Assembly: GCF_017355955.1 (NCBI RefSeq)
Contig: NZ_JAFFID010000003.1
Span: forward strand, 186,001 to 250,000
DNA length: 64,000 bases
Origin: Sabulibacter ruber
GTDB lineage: Bacteria > Bacteroidota > Bacteroidia > Cytophagales > Hymenobacteraceae
Reading direction: 5' to 3'
Part shown: piece by piece, positions 5,923 to 48,532 of the stretch
How the letters are laid out: each line of letters starts with the position of its first letter
How positions within the stretch are numbered: the first letter of the stretch is position 1
Position numbers and translations under genes: made by a program
Notes under the pieces: generated by a model
Seen by the model: the letters and a program-made list of their open reading frames with translations, nothing else
The model's database searches: none
What the model was told of the DNA's origin: nothing

Positions 5923-6810
5923 CTATAAACTTGCCACAAACGCCAACTGCTCACCGGTTGGGCTTACTGCCAGGCGGGTGATGGTTTTGATGCCGTGCTT
6001 GCTCAGATCAGCGATCTCTTTCCAGCGTGGATCGGTGCCGGGGCGGTAGACAAATATTTTGGCTCCCTGGGCCATGAGCAACCGTCCATCTGGTAGCCAG
6101 GCAAAATCCTGACTGCCCGGTAAGGCTTGAATCAGGGTTTCCCTGGCTCCGGTTTTCAGGGTCAATTGCTTGATTTCAGCAATGGAATCTGAAACAGGAA
6201 CTAGATAGCTGATGGCCGCCTTCCGGGGTACTCTATGCAGGCTTCGGCCTACTGGCTCCTCCAGCTTCACGGGCTCTCCTCCTTTGGTGGCTCCCACGTA
6301 TAAACTCATGGGTGGCTGGTCACGGAACGCGGCCATAAGCAAGGTATCTGGGTTATACCAAACATGATAGCCTATCAACTGAGGCATTTTCATGAGCAAG
6401 GCAGGCTGGCCGGAACCCGGCTTTAACGGAAAGCGCCAGAGATGCTGTTCTTTTCCCCGCACCACAGAGAAGGTCTTGCCATCTGGCGTAACCAGCGGTG
6501 AGTACTCGGCCTCCGGAGTACTGGTGAGCTGTTCCGTTTTTTTGCTTTCCAGAGAGTATTGAAAGATATCGGTTTGCTGGTCGTCTTGCTGGGAGGCATA
6601 CAAAATAAACTTGCCGTCTGGAGTGAAGCTGGGCTGATTGTCATAGCCAGAACGCTGCGTGATATTGGTGGGCTGCCCCACTTGCAGCGTCTCTTTCTGT
6701 TTTTTCAGGAAAACCAGGAAAATCTCAGTGTCCGGGATGCCCTGACCTGCCGCTTCTCCACCTACTATCCCTAGCCAAACCAAGAGCAAACTCCTTTTGA
6801 AGACTTTCAT
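5923..6810 (-). CDS. secreted TolB-like (PD40) beta-propeller protein
   Basis: A 295-residue exported protein with N-terminal signal MKVFKRSLLLVWLGIVGGEAA (cut near AAGQG). PD40/TolB-type blades follow: SGYDNQPSFTPDGKFILYAS near residue 57, STPEAEYSPLVTPDGKTFSVV near 100, and LAVSPTGEQLAFVA at the very C-terminus. The protein is short for a full six-blade propeller. I chose the internal ATG at 6810 because it begins a standard signal peptide; the earlier ATG at 6846 would add 12 residues. It likely binds peptidoglycan-associated or surface partners, but no specific role can be read. The 3' end is convergent with the amidohydrolase gene and shares its terminator. Confidence 0.8.
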   Translation of the reverse strand: MKVFKRSLLLVWLGIVGGEAAGQGIPDTEIFLVFLKKQKETLQVGQPTNITQRSGYDNQPSFTPDGKFILYASQQDDQQTDIFQYSLESKKTEQLTSTPEAEYSPLVTPDGKTFSVVRGKEQHLWRFPLKPGSGQPALLMKMPQLIGYHVWYNPDTLLMAAFRDQPPMSLYVGATKGGEPVKLEEPVGRSLHRVPRKAAISYLVPVSDSIAEIKQLTLKTGARETLIQALPGSQDFAWLPDGRLLMAQGAKIFVYRPGTDPRWKEIADLSKHGIKTITRLAVSPTGEQLAFVASL

Positions 6811-7576: not shown

Positions 7577-8266
7577 TTAAACTTCTTCCGCTTTCAGATC
7601 CTGCATGGGGCGCAGGAAGAAATCATTAAGCGGCTTTACGGCTTTCATGGCTCCCAGACATTCCTCGTAGAGGCGTTCACTGGTGACCACTTCATCCGGT
7701 AGCATGTACGTGGTGTTCCAGCTTTTGTGCCGAAGCAGCTCTATGGCCGGGTTCTCGCTGTCATAGCCTTTGGGAGTGGTTTTCAGTTTCTCCCCGCCCA
7801 CCCCGTTGTAGTATTTCTTAAAGGTAGGATCGTTTAAGAGCGCCTTTAGCTCCTCATAATTGTAGTCTATCTCCTGCCGAATGGCTTTCAACTCTGGTGC
7901 GGGCGGCATCCAAACCCCGCCGGCCAGGAAAGATCCATCATCTGGGCTGATGTGCAGGTAAAAGCCGGGGTTGATGGTCTTGCGGCCGCCTTCGGCCATG
8001 TAGGCGCAGATGTGCTCTTTATAAGGCCGCTTGTCGTTTGAGAACCGAACATCGCGGTAGATCCGAAACATGAGGTCTTTGGGTTCCTGTCCGTCCAGAG
8101 CAGGTTCAAAGGCAACGGCTCCTTTCAGGAGGGTGCGCAGGAAAGAGATAAAATCCTGACGGGCGGCCTCGTAGCGGCTGCGGTTCTTCTCAAACCATTC
8201 CCGTTGGTTATTCTGGCGAAGGTCCCGGATAAAATCTAAGGTAGATTGGTCTAGGTATTTTTTCAT
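7577..8266 (-). CDS. DUF2461 family protein
   Basis: A 229-residue soluble protein of the DUF2461 (TIGR02453) family. Diagnostic segments are LDFIRDLRQNNQREWFEKNRSRYEAARQDF at residues 9-38, FRIYRDVRFSNDKRPYKEHICAYM near 68, NPGFYLHISPDDGSFLAGGVWMPPAPELKAIRQEI near 98, and the C-terminal LRPMQDLKAEEV. The family is widespread in bacteria and has no established function. It stands alone between a terminator and a palindromic element. The length is normal. Confidence 0.93.
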   Translation of the reverse strand: MKKYLDQSTLDFIRDLRQNNQREWFEKNRSRYEAARQDFISFLRTLLKGAVAFEPALDGQEPKDLMFRIYRDVRFSNDKRPYKEHICAYMAEGGRKTINPGFYLHISPDDGSFLAGGVWMPPAPELKAIRQEIDYNYEELKALLNDPTFKKYYNGVGGEKLKTTPKGYDSENPAIELLRHKSWNTTYMLPDEVVTSERLYEECLGAMKAVKPLNDFFLRPMQDLKAEEV

Positions 8267-14870: not shown

Positions 14871-15200
14871 TCCAGTCTTCCGCGCTCGCGCTGTACCAGC
14901 TTCCTTTGCTCCCTTTCGGTCGCAATGCCTGTCGGCACCGGTACCTGCTAAGGCGCTCGCCCGAAAGACTGGAATCGGGGAAAGTAATAGAATCGGTGAC
15001 GATATTGGTCCTCGTAGCCTCGTAGAGACAAGGCAGTGCCTTGTCTCCTACAACCATTACCTTTCCTTTCCATGGTTCAAGTCTGTGACTTGGACCTACC
15101 ATGGTCGGCAGTTTGCAACTGCCGTGAGGCAATAGCCTCAAAGACAGGTCCTTAGATCCGCTGGCGCGAGCCTCCGGCTCGTGTCCGCACGTATTCCAGA
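14871..15200. repeat. cluster of REP-like palindromes
   Basis: No gene. Several nested palindromes follow one another: TCCAGTCTT (14871-14879) and AAGACTGGA (14965-14973) enclose a GC-rich unit of about 103 bp; GTAGAGACAAGGCA / TGCCTTGTCTCCTAC at 15022-15051; CAAGTCTGTGACTTG near 15079; GGCAGTTTGCAACTGCC near 15106; and a GCGAGCCTCCGGCTCG core near 15165. The AGAGACAAGGCA palindrome recurs at 44984. This looks like a landing zone for small dispersed palindromic elements. Confidence 0.6.
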
Positions 15201-15382: not shown

Positions 15383-15430
15383 GCCTTCAATTCCGGCCTG
15401 TTTTGATGAAAACAGGCCTAAATCGAAGGC
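15383..15430. terminator. terminator of eIF1-like gene / 40-bp palindromic element copy
   Basis: Arms 15383-15404 and 15409-15430 pair over 22 positions with three mismatches around a GATG loop. The hairpin is preceded on the minus-strand exit side by an A-run (T-run in RNA). It sits 24 nt beyond the stop of the gene at 15455. The inner part GGCCTGTTTT / AAAACAGGCC is the core of the 40-bp family. Confidence 0.8.
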
Positions 15431-40535: not shown

Positions 40536-40565
40536 CCATAGTTCACCACTTACCTATTGAAAACT

Positions 40566-41987
40566 ATGGCAAATACTTCTATCCTCACCGGCAAAGACCT
40601 TCTTGCCTTGGGGTACCCTGAAGGAAAGACGATTGGCATTAGCCTTCGCCTGATGGCGCAGCATTACCACCACTTTTCTTTAGAAGATCAGATTCGGCTT
40701 ACGGCTCAGGTTCTGGCAAATCCAGCGGAGTTTCTGACGCACGAAAAACTTGCTTCACTGGCCGAGGCGCTGACAGAACAAGTAAATCCCGGTGTTATCC
40801 CCTTGCACGAAGCTCCGCTGCCCTTTGCAGTGTACGATGGGGCGGGGATTCAGGAGGGCGCCAAACGGCAGATGGAAACGGCCATGCGCTTGCCAGTGGC
40901 AGTAGCCGGTGCCCTCATGCCCGATGCCCACCAGGGCTATGGCTTGCCCATTGGCGGGGTACTGGCTACCCGTAATGCGGTGATCCCCTATGGCGTGGGC
41001 GTAGACATCGGGTGCCGAATGTGCCTTACCCTCTACCCTGCCCCATCTGGGTTTATAGACCAGAACCGTGGGCCATTAAAGAAGATTTTGGTGGATAACA
41101 CCCGCTTTGGAAGGGCAACGTTTCAGAAGCCTATGGACCATGCCGTAATGGACCGAGCAGAGTTCACCGAGATTCCGGTGCTGCGCAGCCTGAAAGACCG
41201 TGCCTTTTCTCAATTGGGTTCTTCAGGGGGCGGAAACCACTTTGTGGAGTTCGGGACGGTTGCCCTCCCCGATGCTCAGAATGAATTTGGGTTGCCTGTG
41301 GGCGATTACCTGGCGGTTCTTTCCCACTCGGGTTCGCGTGGATTGGGGGCCAACATTGCCGGATACTACACCAAACTGGCCATGCAGAACTGCCCGCTGC
41401 CCCAGGAGGCCCGCCACTTAGCCTGGCTGGACCTGACCACTGAGGCGGGTCAGGAATACTGGCTCGCCATGAACCTGGCCGGTGACTACGCCAGCGCGTG
41501 CCACCACCAGATTCATGACCGTCTAGCCAAGGCTTTGGCCCTGGAACCACTGGCGAGGGTAGAGAACCACCACAACTTCGCCTGGAAAGAACAGGATGCC
41601 AATGGTCAGGAGTTGATTGTACACCGCAAAGGCGCCACCCCCGCCGGCATGGGTGTGCTGGGAATTATTCCGGGTTCTATGACGGCTCCCGGCTATATTG
41701 TGCGGGGGCGCGGAACAGCCGCCTCGGTGAACTCTGCCTCGCACGGAGCCGGACGCCAGATGTCCCGCACCCAGGCTAAGAACACGCTTTCCGCGGCCCA
41801 GGTACAGCGGCATTTACAGGAAGCAGGCGTTGACGTAATCGGGTCCGGACTGGATGAAGCTCCCATGGCATACAAAGACATTCGCCAGGTGATGGCTGCG
41901 CAACAAGATTTGGTAGAAGTCGTGGGAACCTTCTCGCCCAAGATTGTGCGCATGTGCGGCGATGAGCAGTATTTAGAGAATGATTAA
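40566..41987 (+). CDS. rtcB: RNA 3'-phosphate/2',3'-cyclic phosphate ligase RtcB
   Basis: A 473-residue GTP- and Mn-dependent RNA ligase joining 2',3'-cyclic-phosphate or 3'-phosphate ends to 5'-OH ends. Motifs in order: MPDAHQGYGLPIGGVLA, the metal-binding Asp-x-x-Cys in GVGVDIGCRM near 150, SSGGGNHFVEFG near 222, HSGSRGLG near 254, NHHNFAW near 335, and the guanylylated His in NSASHGAGRQMSR near 394. All metal and nucleotide ligands appear present. I start at the ATG at 40566; a TTG three codons earlier is possible. No archease or RtcA gene is adjacent. The upstream dyad operator ties it to the nucleotidyltransferase and Ro60 genes. Confidence 0.96.
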   Translation: MANTSILTGKDLLALGYPEGKTIGISLRLMAQHYHHFSLEDQIRLTAQVLANPAEFLTHEKLASLAEALTEQVNPGVIPLHEAPLPFAVYDGAGIQEGAKRQMETAMRLPVAVAGALMPDAHQGYGLPIGGVLATRNAVIPYGVGVDIGCRMCLTLYPAPSGFIDQNRGPLKKILVDNTRFGRATFQKPMDHAVMDRAEFTEIPVLRSLKDRAFSQLGSSGGGNHFVEFGTVALPDAQNEFGLPVGDYLAVLSHSGSRGLGANIAGYYTKLAMQNCPLPQEARHLAWLDLTTEAGQEYWLAMNLAGDYASACHHQIHDRLAKALALEPLARVENHHNFAWKEQDANGQELIVHRKGATPAGMGVLGIIPGSMTAPGYIVRGRGTAASVNSASHGAGRQMSRTQAKNTLSAAQVQRHLQEAGVDVIGSGLDEAPMAYKDIRQVMAAQQDLVEVVGTFSPKIVRMCGDEQYLEND

Positions 41988-43410: not shown

Positions 43411-44928
43411 ATGCGATTCAACGTATTCAAAGCAAAAGAAACCGAGACCCTGAACCATGAGGGAGCCTTGGCCTGGAAGCTGGGCCCAAAAGCAGAGCTG
43501 TATGCCGCCACGGTAACAGCTTCGTTGCAGGACTCTTTCTATCAGACCGCTACTGCCCGTCTGGAGCAGTTGCAGGTGCTGGTGGCCCAGAACGAACCGG
43601 AGTTTGTAGCAAAACTGGCCCTCTACGCCCGAACGCACATGCACCTGCGCAGCGTTCCTTTGGTGCTGTTAGTGGAACTTGCCTTGGTACACCGCGGCGA
43701 TAACCTGGTGAGCCGGGCCGTGGCCCAGACCCTGCAGCGCGCCGATGAAATCACCGAGTTGCTGGCGTATTACCAGTTCCGTAACGGGCGTACCGGCACC
43801 AAGAAGCTGCACAAGTTGTCCAAGCAGTTGCAGCGGGGTATTGCCATGGCTTTCAACCGGTTTGATGCCTACCAGTTTGCCAAGTACAACCGGGAGGCCG
43901 AGATCAAACTGAGAGATGCCTTGTTTCTGGCCCACCCGGTGCCCAAAGACGCGCAGCAGCAAACCATCTTCAATCAAATCGCCACCAACACCTTGCCCAC
44001 TCCCTATACCTGGGAAACCGAGTTGTCGGGGCTGGGGCAGCAGCAGTTTGACTTTGCCGAGGAAAAGGCATTGGCATTCTGCGCCAAATGGGAAGAACTC
44101 ATTGACAGCGGCAAACTGGGGTACATGGCCTTGTTGCGTAACCTGCGTAACATTCTGGAGGCCGAGGTATCGGCGGCCCACATTCAGAAAGTGTGTCAAA
44201 CGTTGGCTGATCCCGTGGCGGTGCAGAAAGCCAGGCAGTTGCCCTTCCGGTTTCTGTCTGCGTACCGGGAGGTACAGGTGCTAAAGTACCCAGACACCGC
44301 ACGCGTGCTGGATGCCCTGGAACAAGCCGTGCAGCACAGCGTGCGCAACCTGCCCGGCTTCTCGCAGGAACAGAAGGTGGTGGTGGCCTGTGACGTATCG
44401 GGATCCATGCAGAAATCCATTTCGCCTAAAAGCAAGGTGCAGCTGTATGACATCGGGCTGATGCTGGGCATGCTGTTGCAGCACCGCTGCGAGCGTGTGG
44501 TTTCGGGCATGTTCGGTGACACCTGGAAGGTCATCAATCTGCCTCGCGGACGCGTGCTGGCCAATGTGCAGGAGTTCCATCGCCGCGAGGGCGAGGTAGG
44601 TTACAGTACCAACGGGTACCTGGTGTTGCAAAACCTTAGGAAATGCAAGGTGCAGGCAGACAAAATCATGTTCTTCACCGATTGCCAACTGTGGGACAAC
44701 AGCGGTTACCAACGCAGCCTCACCCAGGAATGGAAACTGTACAAAGCCCTGTACCCCAGTGCCCGCCTGTACCTCTTCGATCTGGCCGGTTACGGCTCCT
44801 CGCCTCTCAACCTATTACAGGAAGACGTCTTCCTGATTGCCGGTTGGTCAGACAAGATCTTTGAGGTGCTGCAGGCCATTGAAAACGGCGCAGATGCTCT
44901 GGAAATGGTGGAGAAAATGGAAGTGTAG
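43411..44928 (+). CDS. rsr: Ro60-like TROVE domain protein
   Basis: A 505-residue cytoplasmic RNA-binding protein. The TROVE HEAT-repeat ring is about residues 15-310 (NHEGALAWKLGPKAELYAATVTASLQD, FVAKLALYARTHMHLRSVPLVLLVELAL, RGIAMAFNRFDAYQFAKYNR). The vWA domain is about 320-505, with the complete MIDAS motif ACDVSGSMQKS near 328. Ro60 rings bind the ends of misfolded RNAs through the central hole and Y RNAs on the outer surface, and in bacteria they work with PNPase and RtcB systems. I use the ATG at 43411, after the operator; an in-frame ATG at 43261 would run through the operator. Three Y-RNA-like genes follow on the same strand. Confidence 0.95.
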   Translation: MRFNVFKAKETETLNHEGALAWKLGPKAELYAATVTASLQDSFYQTATARLEQLQVLVAQNEPEFVAKLALYARTHMHLRSVPLVLLVELALVHRGDNLVSRAVAQTLQRADEITELLAYYQFRNGRTGTKKLHKLSKQLQRGIAMAFNRFDAYQFAKYNREAEIKLRDALFLAHPVPKDAQQQTIFNQIATNTLPTPYTWETELSGLGQQQFDFAEEKALAFCAKWEELIDSGKLGYMALLRNLRNILEAEVSAAHIQKVCQTLADPVAVQKARQLPFRFLSAYREVQVLKYPDTARVLDALEQAVQHSVRNLPGFSQEQKVVVACDVSGSMQKSISPKSKVQLYDIGLMLGMLLQHRCERVVSGMFGDTWKVINLPRGRVLANVQEFHRREGEVGYSTNGYLVLQNLRKCKVQADKIMFFTDCQLWDNSGYQRSLTQEWKLYKALYPSARLYLFDLAGYGSSPLNLLQEDVFLIAGWSDKIFEVLQAIENGADALEMVEKMEV

Positions 44929-44933
44929 CAAAG

Positions 44934-44973
44934 TTGATTTCCGGCCTGTTTCTGCAAAACCGGCCGGAAACGG
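44934..44973 (+). terminator. terminator of Ro60 gene / 40-bp palindromic element copy
   Basis: TTTCCGGCC / GGCCGGAAA with an inner GTTT / AAAC pair. It begins five bases past the Ro60 stop. It has the length and half-site spacing of the 40-bp family. Confidence 0.65.
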
Positions 44974-44983
44974 GGAACGCAAC

Positions 44984-45008
44984 AGAGACAAGGCAGTGCC
45001 TTGTCTCT
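44984..45008. repeat. perfect palindrome shared with 15 kb repeat cluster
   Basis: AGAGACAAGGCA, G, TGCCTTGTCTCT: 12-bp perfect arms. The same palindrome occurs at 15022-15051. It lies between the Ro60 gene and the first Y-RNA-like gene. Confidence 0.75.
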
Positions 45009-45046
45009 ACAAACAAACCAAAATTGATGACAGAATAGAAGATAAG

Positions 45047-45155
45047 GAAAGGTGCCGTAGGTGCGTGATACTTCGTGGTAACGTCTTTGGACAAAGCAGG
45101 TTCGAACCCTGCCCGCTGGCAACAGCGGAAAGCACGTGCCGCTTGTAGCCCTTTC
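45047..45155 (+). ncRNA. Y RNA-like transcript 1
   Basis: About 109 nt. The ends pair as GAAAGG / CCTTTC; next come the invariant loop TGCCGTA (5') and GCTTGTAGC (3'), then an upper stem GGTGCGTG / CACGTGCC. The inner module has a T-arm mimic GCAGG-TTCGAAC-CCTGC (45096-45112) directly followed by a capped acceptor-like hairpin CCGCTG-GCAA-CAGCGG. A clear D arm is absent; CTTT-GGAC-AAAG may replace it. The Ro-binding-like stem with an internal loop reading GGUGCCGUAGG ... UUG/UAGCC resembles the conserved Y RNA stem. Location directly 3' of Ro60 supports the call. Confidence 0.8.
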
Positions 45156-45190
45156 TATTTTAAAGCTAATTTCAGAAAACAAAGCAAAAA

Positions 45191-45327
45191 CGAGCGGTGC
45201 CGTAGGTGGGAGTTACTTCGATCTGATATCCGTGTGTCGGGGGTTCGATTCCCTCCATTTCCCCTCGGGGAGGTGTAGCTCAGCTGGTAGAGCAACGTAC
45301 AGTCTCCTGCCGCCTGTTGCCCGCTCG
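45191..45327 (+). ncRNA. Y RNA-like transcript 2, with full tRNA mimic
   Basis: About 137 nt. Terminal stem CGAGCGG / CCGCTCG, invariant TGCCGTA opposite GCCTGTTGC, and upper stem GGTGGGAG / CTCCTGCC. The inner module is a circularly permuted tRNA: T arm GGGGG-TTCGATT-CCCTC (45239-45255), acceptor stem CATTTCCC / GGGAGGTG capped by a CTCG tetraloop (45256-45275), then TA and a D arm GCTC-AGCTGGTA-GAGC (45278-45293). The RNA enters and leaves where a tRNA's anticodon stem would be, as in YrlA-type bacterial Y RNAs. T-rich sequence follows the 3' end. Confidence 0.85.
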
Positions 45328-45364
45328 TTCTTTGTTTTTGTTCTACAATTGAAAAAATAGCCAG

Positions 45365-45508
45365 GAAACGGTGCCGTAGGCAAGAGTTACTTCGATTCAG
45401 GTTCGGGAAATGCAGGTTCAAATCCTGCTCTTTCTTGCTGTGCTTCAGGCGGAAAGATAGTGTAAGGGTAGCACGCCAAAAAGTCTCTTACCGGCTGTTG
45501 CCCGTTTC
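45365..45508 (+). ncRNA. Y RNA-like transcript 3, with tRNA mimic
   Basis: About 144 nt. Terminal stem GAAACGG / CCGTTTC, invariant TGCCGTA opposite GGCTGTTGC, and upper stem GGCAAGAG / CTCTTACC with one C-A. T arm GCAGG-TTCAAAT-CCTGC (45412-45428), a longer imperfect capped acceptor-like hairpin opening with TCTTTC and closing with GAAAGA (45429-45457), TA, and a D arm GTGT-AAGGGTA-GCAC (45460-45474). The D arm resembles that of tRNA-Gln. Stems differ in sequence from copies 1 and 2 but keep pairing. Confidence 0.83.
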
Positions 45509-45537
45509 TCTGGTTATGTATCAAACTGCTACAATAA

Positions 45538-45597
45538 CAAAGCAGATCTGTTTTGGCCCTTTTTTCCAGAAATCAGGGCTAAAACAGATCTGCTTTG
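45538..45597. terminator. long hairpin after Y RNA array / 40-bp palindromic element copy
   Basis: 23-bp arms (45538-45560, 45575-45597) with one G/A difference around 14 nt. Core 45548-45587 is a full copy of the 40-bp family. It separates the Y RNA array from the convergent receptor gene and can terminate both. Confidence 0.82.
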
Positions 45598-45674
45598 CAT
45601 TTGCCCGGCGTAATCCGGCTCAGGGCTGTTAGCTAAACTCAAACTTTGGAGCCAGACTTCACGCTCCTTCCGGT

Positions 45675-48131
45675 TTAATTCCCCCCGGCCCGTTTCCGTT
45701 CTTCTTCTGAGCTGGTTTCCCGTTTGGTGGCGGCTTTCATTTTCCGGTTCCCGAAATTTCTGGAGTACGTGAGCCGCACTACGCGTGGGTCTGAGAAAAC
45801 TCCGTCAAAATCTGAGTATAGGTTAAGATCCTTTAAATCGGACAGCAGCCTGAAGCGCCGGGTCCAGAATATATCTTCTATGGCTAACCGCAGCACTCCC
45901 TTTTCATTGGGCAGTTCTTTCTGCAAACCGGCGTTGAGGGACCCAAAGGGTTTTCCGTAGGCGATGCCCATGGGCCTGCGGGAAAGGTAAAAGCCAGAGA
46001 GCTCCGCCGAAAAGGATTTAGGCAGCTTGAAACTCTGCGAGATATTGACGCTGGCGAAACCGCCGTTGATGGTGACTTCCTGGCCATCGTAGAGCCCGGT
46101 GTTGCTGATCCAGATGCCCATCAGGTTGCTCTGGATCTGCCACCAGTTGGTGGGGCTCAACGGGAAAGAGAAATTGAGGGAGAAGTTGTGCGCGTACTTG
46201 AGGTTCTCTGCCCGGGCGTATTGTTTGTTGGTCTCGGGGTCCAGGTGCAGTTGCCAGGCCACAATGGGGGTTTTATCATAGCTGTAGCCCACAGAAAGCA
46301 GGTAGCTGTCCAGGAAGCGGTAGGTGCCCTGGTAGGCATTGGTGATGGTGGGCCGCAGGTTGGTGTTCCCTGACAGAAACGAATTGGGATCAATGAAAAA
46401 GACGAAGGGCGCCAGGTTGTTGTAGGTGGGCCGGGTGATCCGGCGGCTATAGGAGACCTGCACACTGCTTTTCTTGGTCAGATCCCGCGACACGAAAATA
46501 CTGGGGAAAAAATTTCCGTAGCGTCTGTCTACAATGCGCTGGCGCTCAATGGTGGCCAAATCTGTGTGGGTGTACTCATACCGCAGCCCGGTCTGCAGCT
46601 TGATTTTATACGGGAGCTGGTGCCTGACATTGAGGTAAGCAGCGCCAATATCTTCTAACATACGAATATGCTGGCTGAATTCAGGGTTGGGCTCCCACAC
46701 GCCATCCCGGTAATTCTGCACCTCCACTTTGTTCCGCAACTTGGAGAGGGTCACCTTCACCCCGGCCTCCAGGGAGGTATTTTCAGCCAGGGAATTGCGG
46801 TAATCCAGTTTACTTACCCACAACTTGATGGGGGTGGTTTTCTCCATTCCCAGTTGCTCCTCCATCCGCTCCGCAGATTCATACCATTCATAATTGAAGG
46901 TGTAATGGTGCGGATTTCGGTCATGGTAATAGAGGTAATCGGTGTCAATAGTGATTTCCTGGTTCTGGGGGAGTTTGTGGGTCAGGTTGAGGTTGCCCAT
47001 CAGGTGGCGCCAATGGTTCACCTCCCGGTGCTGCGTCCGGACCACCGACTCCAGGTTCCCGTTGATTCGGGTTTCCGAAGTCCCTACTTCGTCTTTCGGT
47101 CCGGTATCCCATCGGTCACTGAACCCAGACACCAACCCGCTGAGAGTGGTTTTGGGCGTAAGGGTGTAGTCAAACCCCACCCGCCCGGTGTGGTTGGTGG
47201 TCACCGGTTGCCTGCTGTTGAAACTGCTGGTTTGCGTCACCTGCCCCTGATGTGTGGTTTGCCGGAAAGTTTCTATGCCGTTGTATTCATGATCCCGGCT
47301 GAAGGAATAATCAGAGTAGAGATTCAGCTTTTCGGTTCTATGGTTCAGGTTGAAGGTACCGGCTGGTTTTTCGTACCAGCCGTATCCCATGGTGAGGGAA
47401 TAAGCGCCATTGGTGCCATAGTTTTCATTCTTTTTCAACACCAGGTTGATGATTCCGGCGTTTCCTTCGGCATCGTACTGGGCCGAGGGAGTGGTGATGA
47501 TCTCAACCTTCTCTATGTTACCGGCGTTCATGCCGCTCAGCATCTGAAAGATAGAGGAAATAGGCACACGGCTTTGTTTTCCGTTGATCATCACAATCAC
47601 GCCATCTTTCCCGCTGATACTAATGGAATTGCTCTGTCGGTTGAGGGTGATACCCGGGGAACGCTCCAGCACATCTAGGGCCGTGGACCCCGCCGACACG
47701 ATGCTTCCCTGCACGTTCACCACCAGACGGTCCAGTTGCTGCTCAAACAAGGGTTTCTGGCCCACTACCTGCACTTCCTTCAACTGCGTGCTTCCGCCGG
47801 GAAGAACCAAATGGATTACCTTCTTGCCACTGGGCGCCTCGGGCACCGTAAAAGCCGGACTGAAGGTTTTCCCCGATCCCACCATGGAGGCCGCCAACAG
47901 GTATTTGCCAGGTTTGATGTTCTCAATCAGGTACGTGCCGTTGTCCCCGGCCAGTACCCCTTTCACCAAAGCCGAATCAGTGGCGTTTAACAGCAGCACA
48001 TTGGCGAAAGGCGTTGGTTCACCGGCCGCTTCCTCCACCCTCCCTGAAACCGAGAACTGCCCAAAGGCGCGGGAGCTACACAGCAGACCGGCAACAACAC
48101 AAAGGCAACGGAAAAGAAAAAAAGGTTTCAT
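45675..48131 (-). CDS. outer membrane beta-barrel receptor with carboxypeptidase-regulatory domain
   Basis: An 818-residue outer-membrane protein. Signal peptide MKPFFLFRCLCVVAGLLCSSRAFG. An N-terminal CarboxypepD_reg-like domain (FSVSGRVEEAAGEPTPFANVLLLNATDSALVKGVLAGDNGTYLIENIKPGKYLLAAS, about 25-85) is followed by a TonB-plug-like region (LDRLVVNVQGSIVSAGSTALDVLERSPGITLNRQSNSISISGKDGVIVMINGK, about 130-185) and a C-terminal barrel (OMP_b-brl_3 type) with many aromatic strand ends. This class resembles TonB-dependent receptors but often lacks SusD partners, and none is seen here. It probably takes up a small nutrient or siderophore. The substrate is unknown. Confidence 0.9.
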   Translation of the reverse strand: MKPFFLFRCLCVVAGLLCSSRAFGQFSVSGRVEEAAGEPTPFANVLLLNATDSALVKGVLAGDNGTYLIENIKPGKYLLAASMVGSGKTFSPAFTVPEAPSGKKVIHLVLPGGSTQLKEVQVVGQKPLFEQQLDRLVVNVQGSIVSAGSTALDVLERSPGITLNRQSNSISISGKDGVIVMINGKQSRVPISSIFQMLSGMNAGNIEKVEIITTPSAQYDAEGNAGIINLVLKKNENYGTNGAYSLTMGYGWYEKPAGTFNLNHRTEKLNLYSDYSFSRDHEYNGIETFRQTTHQGQVTQTSSFNSRQPVTTNHTGRVGFDYTLTPKTTLSGLVSGFSDRWDTGPKDEVGTSETRINGNLESVVRTQHREVNHWRHLMGNLNLTHKLPQNQEITIDTDYLYYHDRNPHHYTFNYEWYESAERMEEQLGMEKTTPIKLWVSKLDYRNSLAENTSLEAGVKVTLSKLRNKVEVQNYRDGVWEPNPEFSQHIRMLEDIGAAYLNVRHQLPYKIKLQTGLRYEYTHTDLATIERQRIVDRRYGNFFPSIFVSRDLTKKSSVQVSYSRRITRPTYNNLAPFVFFIDPNSFLSGNTNLRPTITNAYQGTYRFLDSYLLSVGYSYDKTPIVAWQLHLDPETNKQYARAENLKYAHNFSLNFSFPLSPTNWWQIQSNLMGIWISNTGLYDGQEVTINGGFASVNISQSFKLPKSFSAELSGFYLSRRPMGIAYGKPFGSLNAGLQKELPNEKGVLRLAIEDIFWTRRFRLLSDLKDLNLYSDFDGVFSDPRVVRLTYSRNFGNRKMKAATKRETSSEEERKRAGGN

Positions 48132-48492: not shown

Positions 48493-48532
48493 TTGTTTCG
48501 GGCCTGTTTTCTCTAAAACAGGCCCGAAACAG
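48493..48532. terminator. perfect 40-bp palindrome, terminator of sialate esterase gene
   Basis: 17-bp perfect arms (48494-48510, 48515-48531) around CTCT. It lies six bases past the stop of the minus-strand gene at 48539. It is the cleanest copy of the 40-bp family: TGTTTCGGGCCTGTTTT and its complement. Confidence 0.85.

Follow-up and report, generated by a model that had tools for sequence, protein, structure and literature searches.

Probable Y RNA genes in tandem behind the Ro60 gene of Sabulibacter ruber and their differing tRNA-like modules

Introduction

Behind the gene for a Ro60 protein of Sabulibacter ruber, a member of the Bacteroidota, three units of similar layout follow one another on the same strand, which raises the question of what RNAs they encode and why one Ro60 should be accompanied by several; in our judgement, the reason for several Y RNAs per Ro60 is a question common to animals and bacteria. 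The window is the whole stretch of 64,000 nucleotides that was analysed (contig NZ_JAFFID010000003.1, positions 186,001 to 250,000), and coordinates refer to it unless a locus is named. An earlier, sequence-only reading had described three tandem Y RNA-like genes at 45047-45508; the letters that it quoted and the three units are present, and these limits are right within a few bases. The units are almost certainly Y RNAs. Very probably they encode bacterial Y RNAs (Yrl) acting as partners of the Ro60/Rsr protein whose gene lies upstream; most likely the stem would dock on the protein and the tRNA-like end would recruit a partner. They thus belong to a known kind, the bacterial Y RNA, and the mixed set of effector modules is the interesting part.

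The Ro60 locus

The surroundings of the array contain the following features:

40557..41987, + strand: RtcB RNA ligase, upstream of Ro60 (Pfam RtcB, 1.6e-83)
43411..44928, + strand: Ro60/Rsr orthologue, 505 aa, with TROVE and vWA-like domains (Pfam TROVE, E 3.8e-33)
44985..45007, no strand: 23-bp palindrome GAGACAAGGCAGTGCCTTGTCTC, between Ro60 and unit 1, also at 15025-15047

The start of Ro60 is the ATG where relatives align. The vWA-like part of the protein is weak (vWA_Ro60, E 8.5e-4, below the Pfam cut-off), its orthologues in Rufibacter ruber and R. roseus are 80 and 77% identical to it, and its solved relatives, 9l5y and 9kop, are titled TROVE domain-containing protein. One opposite-strand gene lies between RtcB and Ro60; a functional link between RtcB and the Ro60 array may exist.

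The palindrome GAGACAAGGCAGTGCCTTGTCTC, found at 33 places in the genome with at most one mismatch, is a dispersed palindromic genome repeat and is probably outside the Y RNA system. Palindromes of the form GGCCTGTTTT....AAAACAGGCC occur at 15395-15418 and 48501-48524, and a degenerate palindrome behind Ro60, at about 44939-44971, resembles them by eye; they may be a second dispersed repeat or a terminator type.

Anatomy of the three units

The units, with the covariance model R1 used as reference, and their predicted parts are:

45045..45157, + strand: Y RNA unit 1, 113 nt, predicted Ro60-binding stem, T arm and closed hairpin, no D arm (R1 56.8 bits)
45096..45112, + strand: T-arm-like stem-loop of unit 1 (GCAGG TTCGAAC CCTGC)
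45113..45128, + strand: closed acceptor-like hairpin of unit 1 (CCGCTG GCAA CAGCGG)
45190..45328, + strand: Y RNA unit 2, 139 nt, YrlA type (R1 133.2 bits; Rfam YrlA 43 bits)
45239..45255, + strand: T arm of unit 2 (GGGGG TTCGATT CCCTC)
45256..45275, + strand: closed acceptor-like hairpin of unit 2 (CATTTCCC-CTCG-GGGAGGTG; alignment A1, columns 68-103, helix 5)
45278..45293, + strand: D arm of unit 2 (GCTC ... GAGC), 3' of the T arm, a permuted order
45364..45509, + strand: Y RNA unit 3, 146 nt, YrlA type with a divergent D arm (R1 104.6 bits; Rfam YrlA 18 bits, effector part only)
45412..45428, + strand: T arm of unit 3 (GCAGG TTCAAAT CCTGC)
45429..45457, + strand: closed acceptor-like hairpin of unit 3 (A1, columns 68-103)
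45460..45474, + strand: D arm of unit 3 (GTGT AAGGGTA GCAC)

The training set of R1 includes units 2 and 3 but not unit 1. Apart from the three units, the highest score in 44900-45700 is 7.4 bits, and R1 detects no fourth unit in the window at E <= 0.001. The first unit starts 116 bases after the Ro60 stop at 44928, on the same strand; the 118 nt given previously follow from a slightly different choice of its start.

Each unit consists of an 8-nt strand, TGCCGTA, a second 8-nt strand, one base, TACTTCG, the effector and then the 3' strands, namely an 8-nt strand, about 9 nt ending in NYTGTYGC and a last 8-nt strand. The paired 8-nt strands form two helices per unit, a terminal and an upper one, separated by an internal loop in which TGCCGTA stands opposite NYTGTYGC. 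The terminal stems of units 1, 2 and 3 are paired at 7, 8 and 8 of 8 positions, and the upper helices are GGTGCGTG/CACGTGCC in unit 1, GGTGGGAG/CTCCTGCC in unit 2 and, with one mismatch, GGCAAGAG/CTCTTACC in unit 3. Thus the upper stems keep their pairing, as the sequence-only reading had noticed, but the 4 bp that it assigned to them are too few, the helix being of 8 bp.

The tRNA-like effector modules inside the units had no place in that earlier account. Units 2 and 3 have a permuted module in which a T arm, a closed acceptor-like hairpin and a D arm follow one another; it corresponds to a tRNA whose acceptor end has been closed and whose arms stand in rotated order, as they do in YrlA. In unit 1 the T arm and the hairpin are present and the D arm is absent, so that the YrlA module is incomplete; the upper helix directly follows the GCAA-closed hairpin, and R1 skips 18 model positions at the place of the D arm. 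When unit 3 is folded alone, its thermodynamic fold differs from the Y RNA fold (z -1.67); its structure rests on homologues.

Linkage to Ro60 and covariation

Homologous units were sought with the motif TGCCGT, 10 nt, TACTTC, allowing at most one mismatch of 12 and demanding no pairing, in 81 loci, that is, the window and the best 80 (L003-L082) of 146 Ro60 loci. The named loci include near relatives and doubtful MAG labels (L056, L062), and all counts are of loci and not of independent events; for loci given at default coordinates, position 6500 served as the end of Ro60 in the motif count and position 6510 in the survey of tRNA and RtcB neighbours. Within 3 kb of Ro60 the motif pair occurs 366 times (341 downstream and 25 upstream), while it is found only 6 times farther than 3 kb on the same strand and 4 times on the other strand. 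At least one match lies within 3 kb of Ro60 in 80 of the 81 loci; the remaining one, L069, has a truncated unit at the contig edge.

The pairing of the stems exceeds chance. A candidate 3' strand exists for 334 units, and in 182 of these the terminal stem has 7 or 8 of its 8 positions paired, as against a mean of 20 and a maximum of 37 in 1000 trials in which the 5' strands were swapped among units, and each terminal pair is represented by up to six standard pair types in the 234 units with at least six terminal pairs. These 234 delimited units were placed by the terminal stem alone, and their upper helix has on average 7.18 of 8 pairs, the largest mean of the swapped control being 5.3 (500 trials). 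Conservation of their heptamer positions is 91-100%, in part because the first six letters belong to the search motif.

An alignment of 39 YrlA-type units, two of them from the window (A1), has 94.2% of its cells paired, compared with 65.9% in shuffles and 43.5-50.8% in slides, and 31 of its 37 pairs are changed on both sides. The covariation score of A1 is 0.741 versus 0.201 in shuffles and at most 0.179 in slides, and the compensatory changes that had been read from the terminal stems of the three units are borne out. RNAalifold, unaided, recovers from A1 five of the six helices (34 pairs) and misses the two junction pairs. Of the sequences, 37 come from 71 units with a T arm followed by a D arm, picked for the length of the middle linker and for spread, and the other two, L004 7241 and L005 6649, have divergent D arms and were included by eye. 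Since terminal pairing, T arm and D arm (in 37 of 39) served as selection criteria, these helices are favoured. The helices outside the criteria covary as well: the upper helix is 93.6% paired with 8 of 8 pairs double-changed, the acceptor-like hairpin 88.0% and the two junction pairs 96.2% paired.

In the 81 Ro60 loci, R1 finds 420 matches at E <= 0.001 (196 + 224), 419 of them on the Ro60 strand. Fourteen of the matches are confined to the central part of the model (about positions 23-117): seven span the border of two annotated tRNA genes, two touch one such gene, one touches none and four lie in a second RNA-like element described below; moreover, two weak full-span matches in L073 (481, 726) overlap tRNA genes. 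Taken together, the motif linkage, the covariation and the R1 matches bear out the proposal of Y RNA-like genes beside Ro60.

Orthology and joint distribution

Each unit of the window has its own orthologue in Rufibacter, and unit 1 also has one in Pontibacter. Unit 1 shares 84% identity with a unit of Rufibacter ruber and with one of R. roseus, and 76% with one of Pontibacter pamirensis; for unit 2 the values are 84% (R. ruber) and 80% (R. roseus), and for unit 3 they are 83% (R. roseus) and 67% (R. ruber). The paralogues of the window are 55-62% identical among themselves, and thus the three are old separate genes. R. roseus has four units, and R. ruber has at least five in a record that ends soon after them, one being a minimal unit of 72 nt; no minimal unit was found in the genome of the window.

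In 194 genomes of the order, Ro60 is present in 49 and the exact motif in 49, with both in 42 (odds ratio 118, Fisher p 7e-28), which leaves seven Ro60 genomes without exact motif and seven motif genomes without Ro60. The exact motif undercounts: G017 was scored as having Ro60 only, yet L066, the probable counterpart of its contig (G017:C461), holds a unit of 120.6 bits. No TROVE match was detected in the seven motif-only genomes; one of them, G109, has two convincing units near a contig end, and its lack of Ro60 is likely to be an assembly gap.

Among 16 genomes of the genus, Ro60 is intact in three, to which all 12 full-length R1 matches above 50 bits are restricted (3, 5 and 4, respectively), so that Ro60 and the units are also absent together; one further full-length match, of 33 bits, is found in G207. 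G208, of the same genus, carries a decayed Ro60 with several in-frame stops (L154:1200-2300) and no R1 match near it, and is consistent with joint loss of Ro60 and Y RNAs.

Many genomes of the genus, whether they have Ro60 or lack it, show partial R1 matches (positions 31-116, 31-45 bits). In the genomes that lack it these are probably borders of tandem tRNA genes, like those found in related loci, the T arm of one gene being followed by the D arm of the next; the YrlA effector module may have arisen from a border of this kind. Four genomes (G024, G040, G072, G097) have two Ro60 genes, the second being 46-47% identical to that of the window, and in G024, G040 and G072 exact Y RNA motifs lie close to both copies.

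Copy number and subtypes in Bacteroidota

Three Y RNAs for one Bacteroidota Ro60 had seemed unusual from the sequence alone, a view that the relatives do not sustain: by motif hits within 3 kb on each side, 68 of the 81 loci (the window and the best 80 of 146) have at least three units and 57 have more than three. One locus has none, 5 have one, 7 two, 11 three, 16 four, 15 five, 13 six, 7 seven and 6 eight units, four being the commonest count and eight the maximum; with this distribution, three copies are ordinary and slightly low.

The 234 delimited units fall into 71 with a T arm and then a D arm, 87 with a T arm alone, 2 with a D arm alone and 74 with neither, counts that are approximate because the D-arm test is strict and undercounts (it misses L004 7241 and L005 6649), so that some units with a divergent D arm are counted under T arm alone. 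When the interiors were shuffled, a set yielded on average 1.35 'T only' and 0.7 'D only' units, and none with T then D. The minimal units, of 69-92 nt and with no recognised T arm, number 39 in 34 of 75 loci; this is an upper figure, since the delimiting rule sometimes cuts units short, as at L022 7990, wrongly listed as minimal where R1 gives 7982-8127. R1 also yields full-span matches of 70-90 nt (e.g., in L003, L006, L028, L034, L065 and L068). The upper helix of the minimal units has 7.38 pairs versus at most 5.59 after swapping, and three examples from relatives fold to the shared stem. By the delimiting rule, a T-bearing and a minimal unit occur together in 30 of 75 loci, and in fifteen loci a form with a hairpin before the T arm, in a GGG/CCC frame, was picked by eye and then aligned.

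A substitute for the D arm was looked for as a small GG-loop hairpin formed by TACTTCG, just before the T arm, in the 83 units without later D arm; it was found in 12, as against 17.5 expected from shuffles, and is not supported as a general rule.

The abstract of Chen et al. 2014 (RNA) reportedly places likely Y RNAs near Ro60 in over 250 species, and at least one Y RNA per species is said to have a tRNA-like domain, which implies several per species. In the open literature searched, which leaves out most subscription journals, no paper on Bacteroidota Y RNA arrays was found; the D-arm-less variant and multi-gene arrays across Bacteroidota were not met there, and Chen et al. 2014 may contain them. 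As such, Bacteroidota Y RNAs are not new, since Ro60 particles immunoprecipitated from Bacteroides thetaiotaomicron include Y RNAs, according to excerpts of a review (PMC11277228).

Proposed function and alternative explanations

The RNA ends are predicted to form a bulged double stem, with 8 bp, UGCCGUA opposite NYUGUYGC and another 8 bp, which would be the Ro60-binding half; the other half would be the effector module, a permuted tRNA mimic in units 2 and 3 and a shortened, D-arm-less version in unit 1. Once transcribed, the RNAs would bind Ro60 through the shared stem, which would dock on the Ro60 ring and gate it, and the tRNA-like end of units 2 and 3 could recruit PNPase as in RYPER, leading to the degradation of structured or damaged RNA. 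PNPase is encoded in the same genome (948 bits), and by analogy its tethering by the units has roughly even chances. Units that lack the D arm or the whole module could act as gates of the ring and tether nothing, and several RNAs per Ro60 could then provide different adaptors, or different gating, for one protein.

A true adaptor specialisation of the units is put forward tentatively. It is likewise possible, while we lean against it, that Bacteroidota Ro60 works with a permanent set of paralogous Y RNAs, commonly three to eight in number, with a shared docking stem and differing effector modules, the subtypes being inherited separately and the adaptors swapped. The modules proposed as part of this set, with the same reserve, would be the full permuted tRNA mimic, the T arm with hairpin (unit 1), the hairpin-then-T-arm form in the GGG/CCC frame (15 loci) and the minimal form of about 70-90 nt, which lacks any tRNA-like part. 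If the adaptor set is true, one Ro60 ring would swap RNAs to recruit, gate or exclude partners. In these loci, paralogues that share a docking stem and differ stepwise in their modules (full mimic, T arm only, none) form a natural series, by which the tether and gate roles could be told apart.

A different role has been considered for the same Y RNAs, namely that the tRNA-like end is a decoy or sensor for enzymes that cut or modify tRNAs, together with RtcB-type repair, each unit baiting a different enzyme. RtcB lies upstream here and is matched in 37 of 80 related Ro60 loci (tblastn with RtcB of the window; loci mostly <=5 kb either side), tRNA genes stand within or beside the array in 16 of the 80, and the YrlA tRNA-like domain is proposed as a possible competitive inhibitor of anticodon nuclease in the accessible portion of PMC7790460. 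We consider the decoy rather unlikely, however: PNPase is present, its tethering is the function described for the Y RNA of Deinococcus radiodurans (PMC8394870 and PMC4726728, in excerpt), and the present analysis ties no unit to a nuclease.

The tRNA genes in or beside Y RNA arrays (L058:2960-4927, L064:3239-4927 and 14 further loci) are close neighbours of the units. In the range from -10 to 49 nt, 23 Y RNA/tRNA gaps were gathered, 22 of which measure -2 to +11 nt; this spacing hints at cleavage of the Y RNA ends by tRNA-processing enzymes.

The preferred reading, of separate Y RNAs that partner Ro60, also has to be weighed against a long 3' UTR of Ro60, in which the structures would be a cis-acting RNA controlling or protecting the mRNA and not free RNAs. 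The array is on the same strand, close behind Ro60; no sigma-70-like promoter was found in the array region, Bacteroidota promoters being outside the predictor's scope, and the single terminator-like site there is the T arm of unit 3, no more than chance would give. Conversely, each unit is closed by its own terminal stem, all motif hits within 3 kb lie upstream of Ro60 in three of the 81 loci (L041, L058, L064), and in Emticicia (L058, L064) the units alternate with tRNA genes a few bases apart, which makes a 3' UTR a very improbable explanation. That the units are functionless remains of tRNA genes, made of T-arm and D-arm fragments, can be practically dismissed: the arms are tRNA-like and tandem tRNA borders match the middle of R1, but the outer stems, unlike those of tRNAs, covary strongly and already contradict this origin, the order of T arm and then D arm recurs in 71 of 234 delimited units and in no shuffled interior, ARAGORN calls no tRNA in the array, and the Rfam tRNA model (cut-off 29) reaches 19.4 bits at 45379-45436, in unit 3 only.

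A second RNA-like element in relatives

An unannotated RNA-like element is present at L064:6772-7030, L044:4991-5220, L017:7838-8050 and L058:6666-6830, and also near 1501 in L157-L159. Behind a conserved start, CCTGATRAGRGYTTC...GTRTTG, it carries permuted tRNA-like modules; L064 has two of them in succession, and there Rfam gives tRNA and sub-threshold YrlA matches only. Its pattern, with at most 3 mismatches, occurs in 3 of the 194 genomes of the order and gives 0 control hits; none of the three genomes has a Ro60 match, and a Band_7/SPFH gene lies near the element in all three. L064 and L044 hold a gene that by eye looks the same as this Band_7/SPFH gene and is followed by RtcB. No exact match to the element was found in viral contigs.

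Comparison with known systems

Animal Y RNAs (Y1, Y3, Y4, Y5) are closed by a bulged stem, with a CCGNAGG-type strand, and in humans several of them serve one Ro60. The units of the window are likewise closed by a bulged stem and several per Ro60, and differ in having a tRNA-like effector in place of the animal loop; the 13 Rfam matches listed (E up to 10, with 3 lower-scoring within-clan overlaps left out) do not include the animal Y RNA family. Thus the likeness to Y RNAs seen in the sequence-only reading was right as to the kind of RNA, while its comparison with animals missed the nearer relatives, namely the YrlA RNAs of bacteria (RF02553, to which unit 2 scores 43 bits).

In Salmonella, the rsr-yrlBA-rtcBA repair operon (PMC9879122 and PMC7790460, as far as their accessible text goes) resembles the window in that Ro60 and RtcB are neighbours of more than one Y RNA gene, whereas in the window RtcB is upstream with an opposite-strand gene in between. 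The Y RNA/RYPER system of D. radiodurans, as excerpts of PMC8394870 and PMC4726728 present it, shares with the present case Ro60, a Y RNA of two modules (predicted here) and a PNPase encoded in the genome; the window differs in having several Y RNAs.

Finally, YrlA (RF02553; Salmonella and others), whose anatomy is described together with RYPER in parts of PMC8394870 and PMC9879122, is matched end to end by unit 2 (E 4e-8) and only in its middle by unit 3, with unit 1 unmatched. Sub-threshold YrlA matches occur in 44 of 98 relatives, 0 of 98 being over the cut-off, and also in 7 of 14 control genomes, and for this reason they prove little alone; R1 recovers the Bacteroidota Y RNAs that the Rfam YrlA model leaves below cut-off. 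The window differs from YrlA in its scores below the 69-bit cut-off, in its three paralogous genes and in unit 1 without D arm; it agrees with it in the position next to rsr/Ro60, in the long terminal stem and, for units 2 and 3, in the permuted order of T arm, closed acceptor-like hairpin and D arm.
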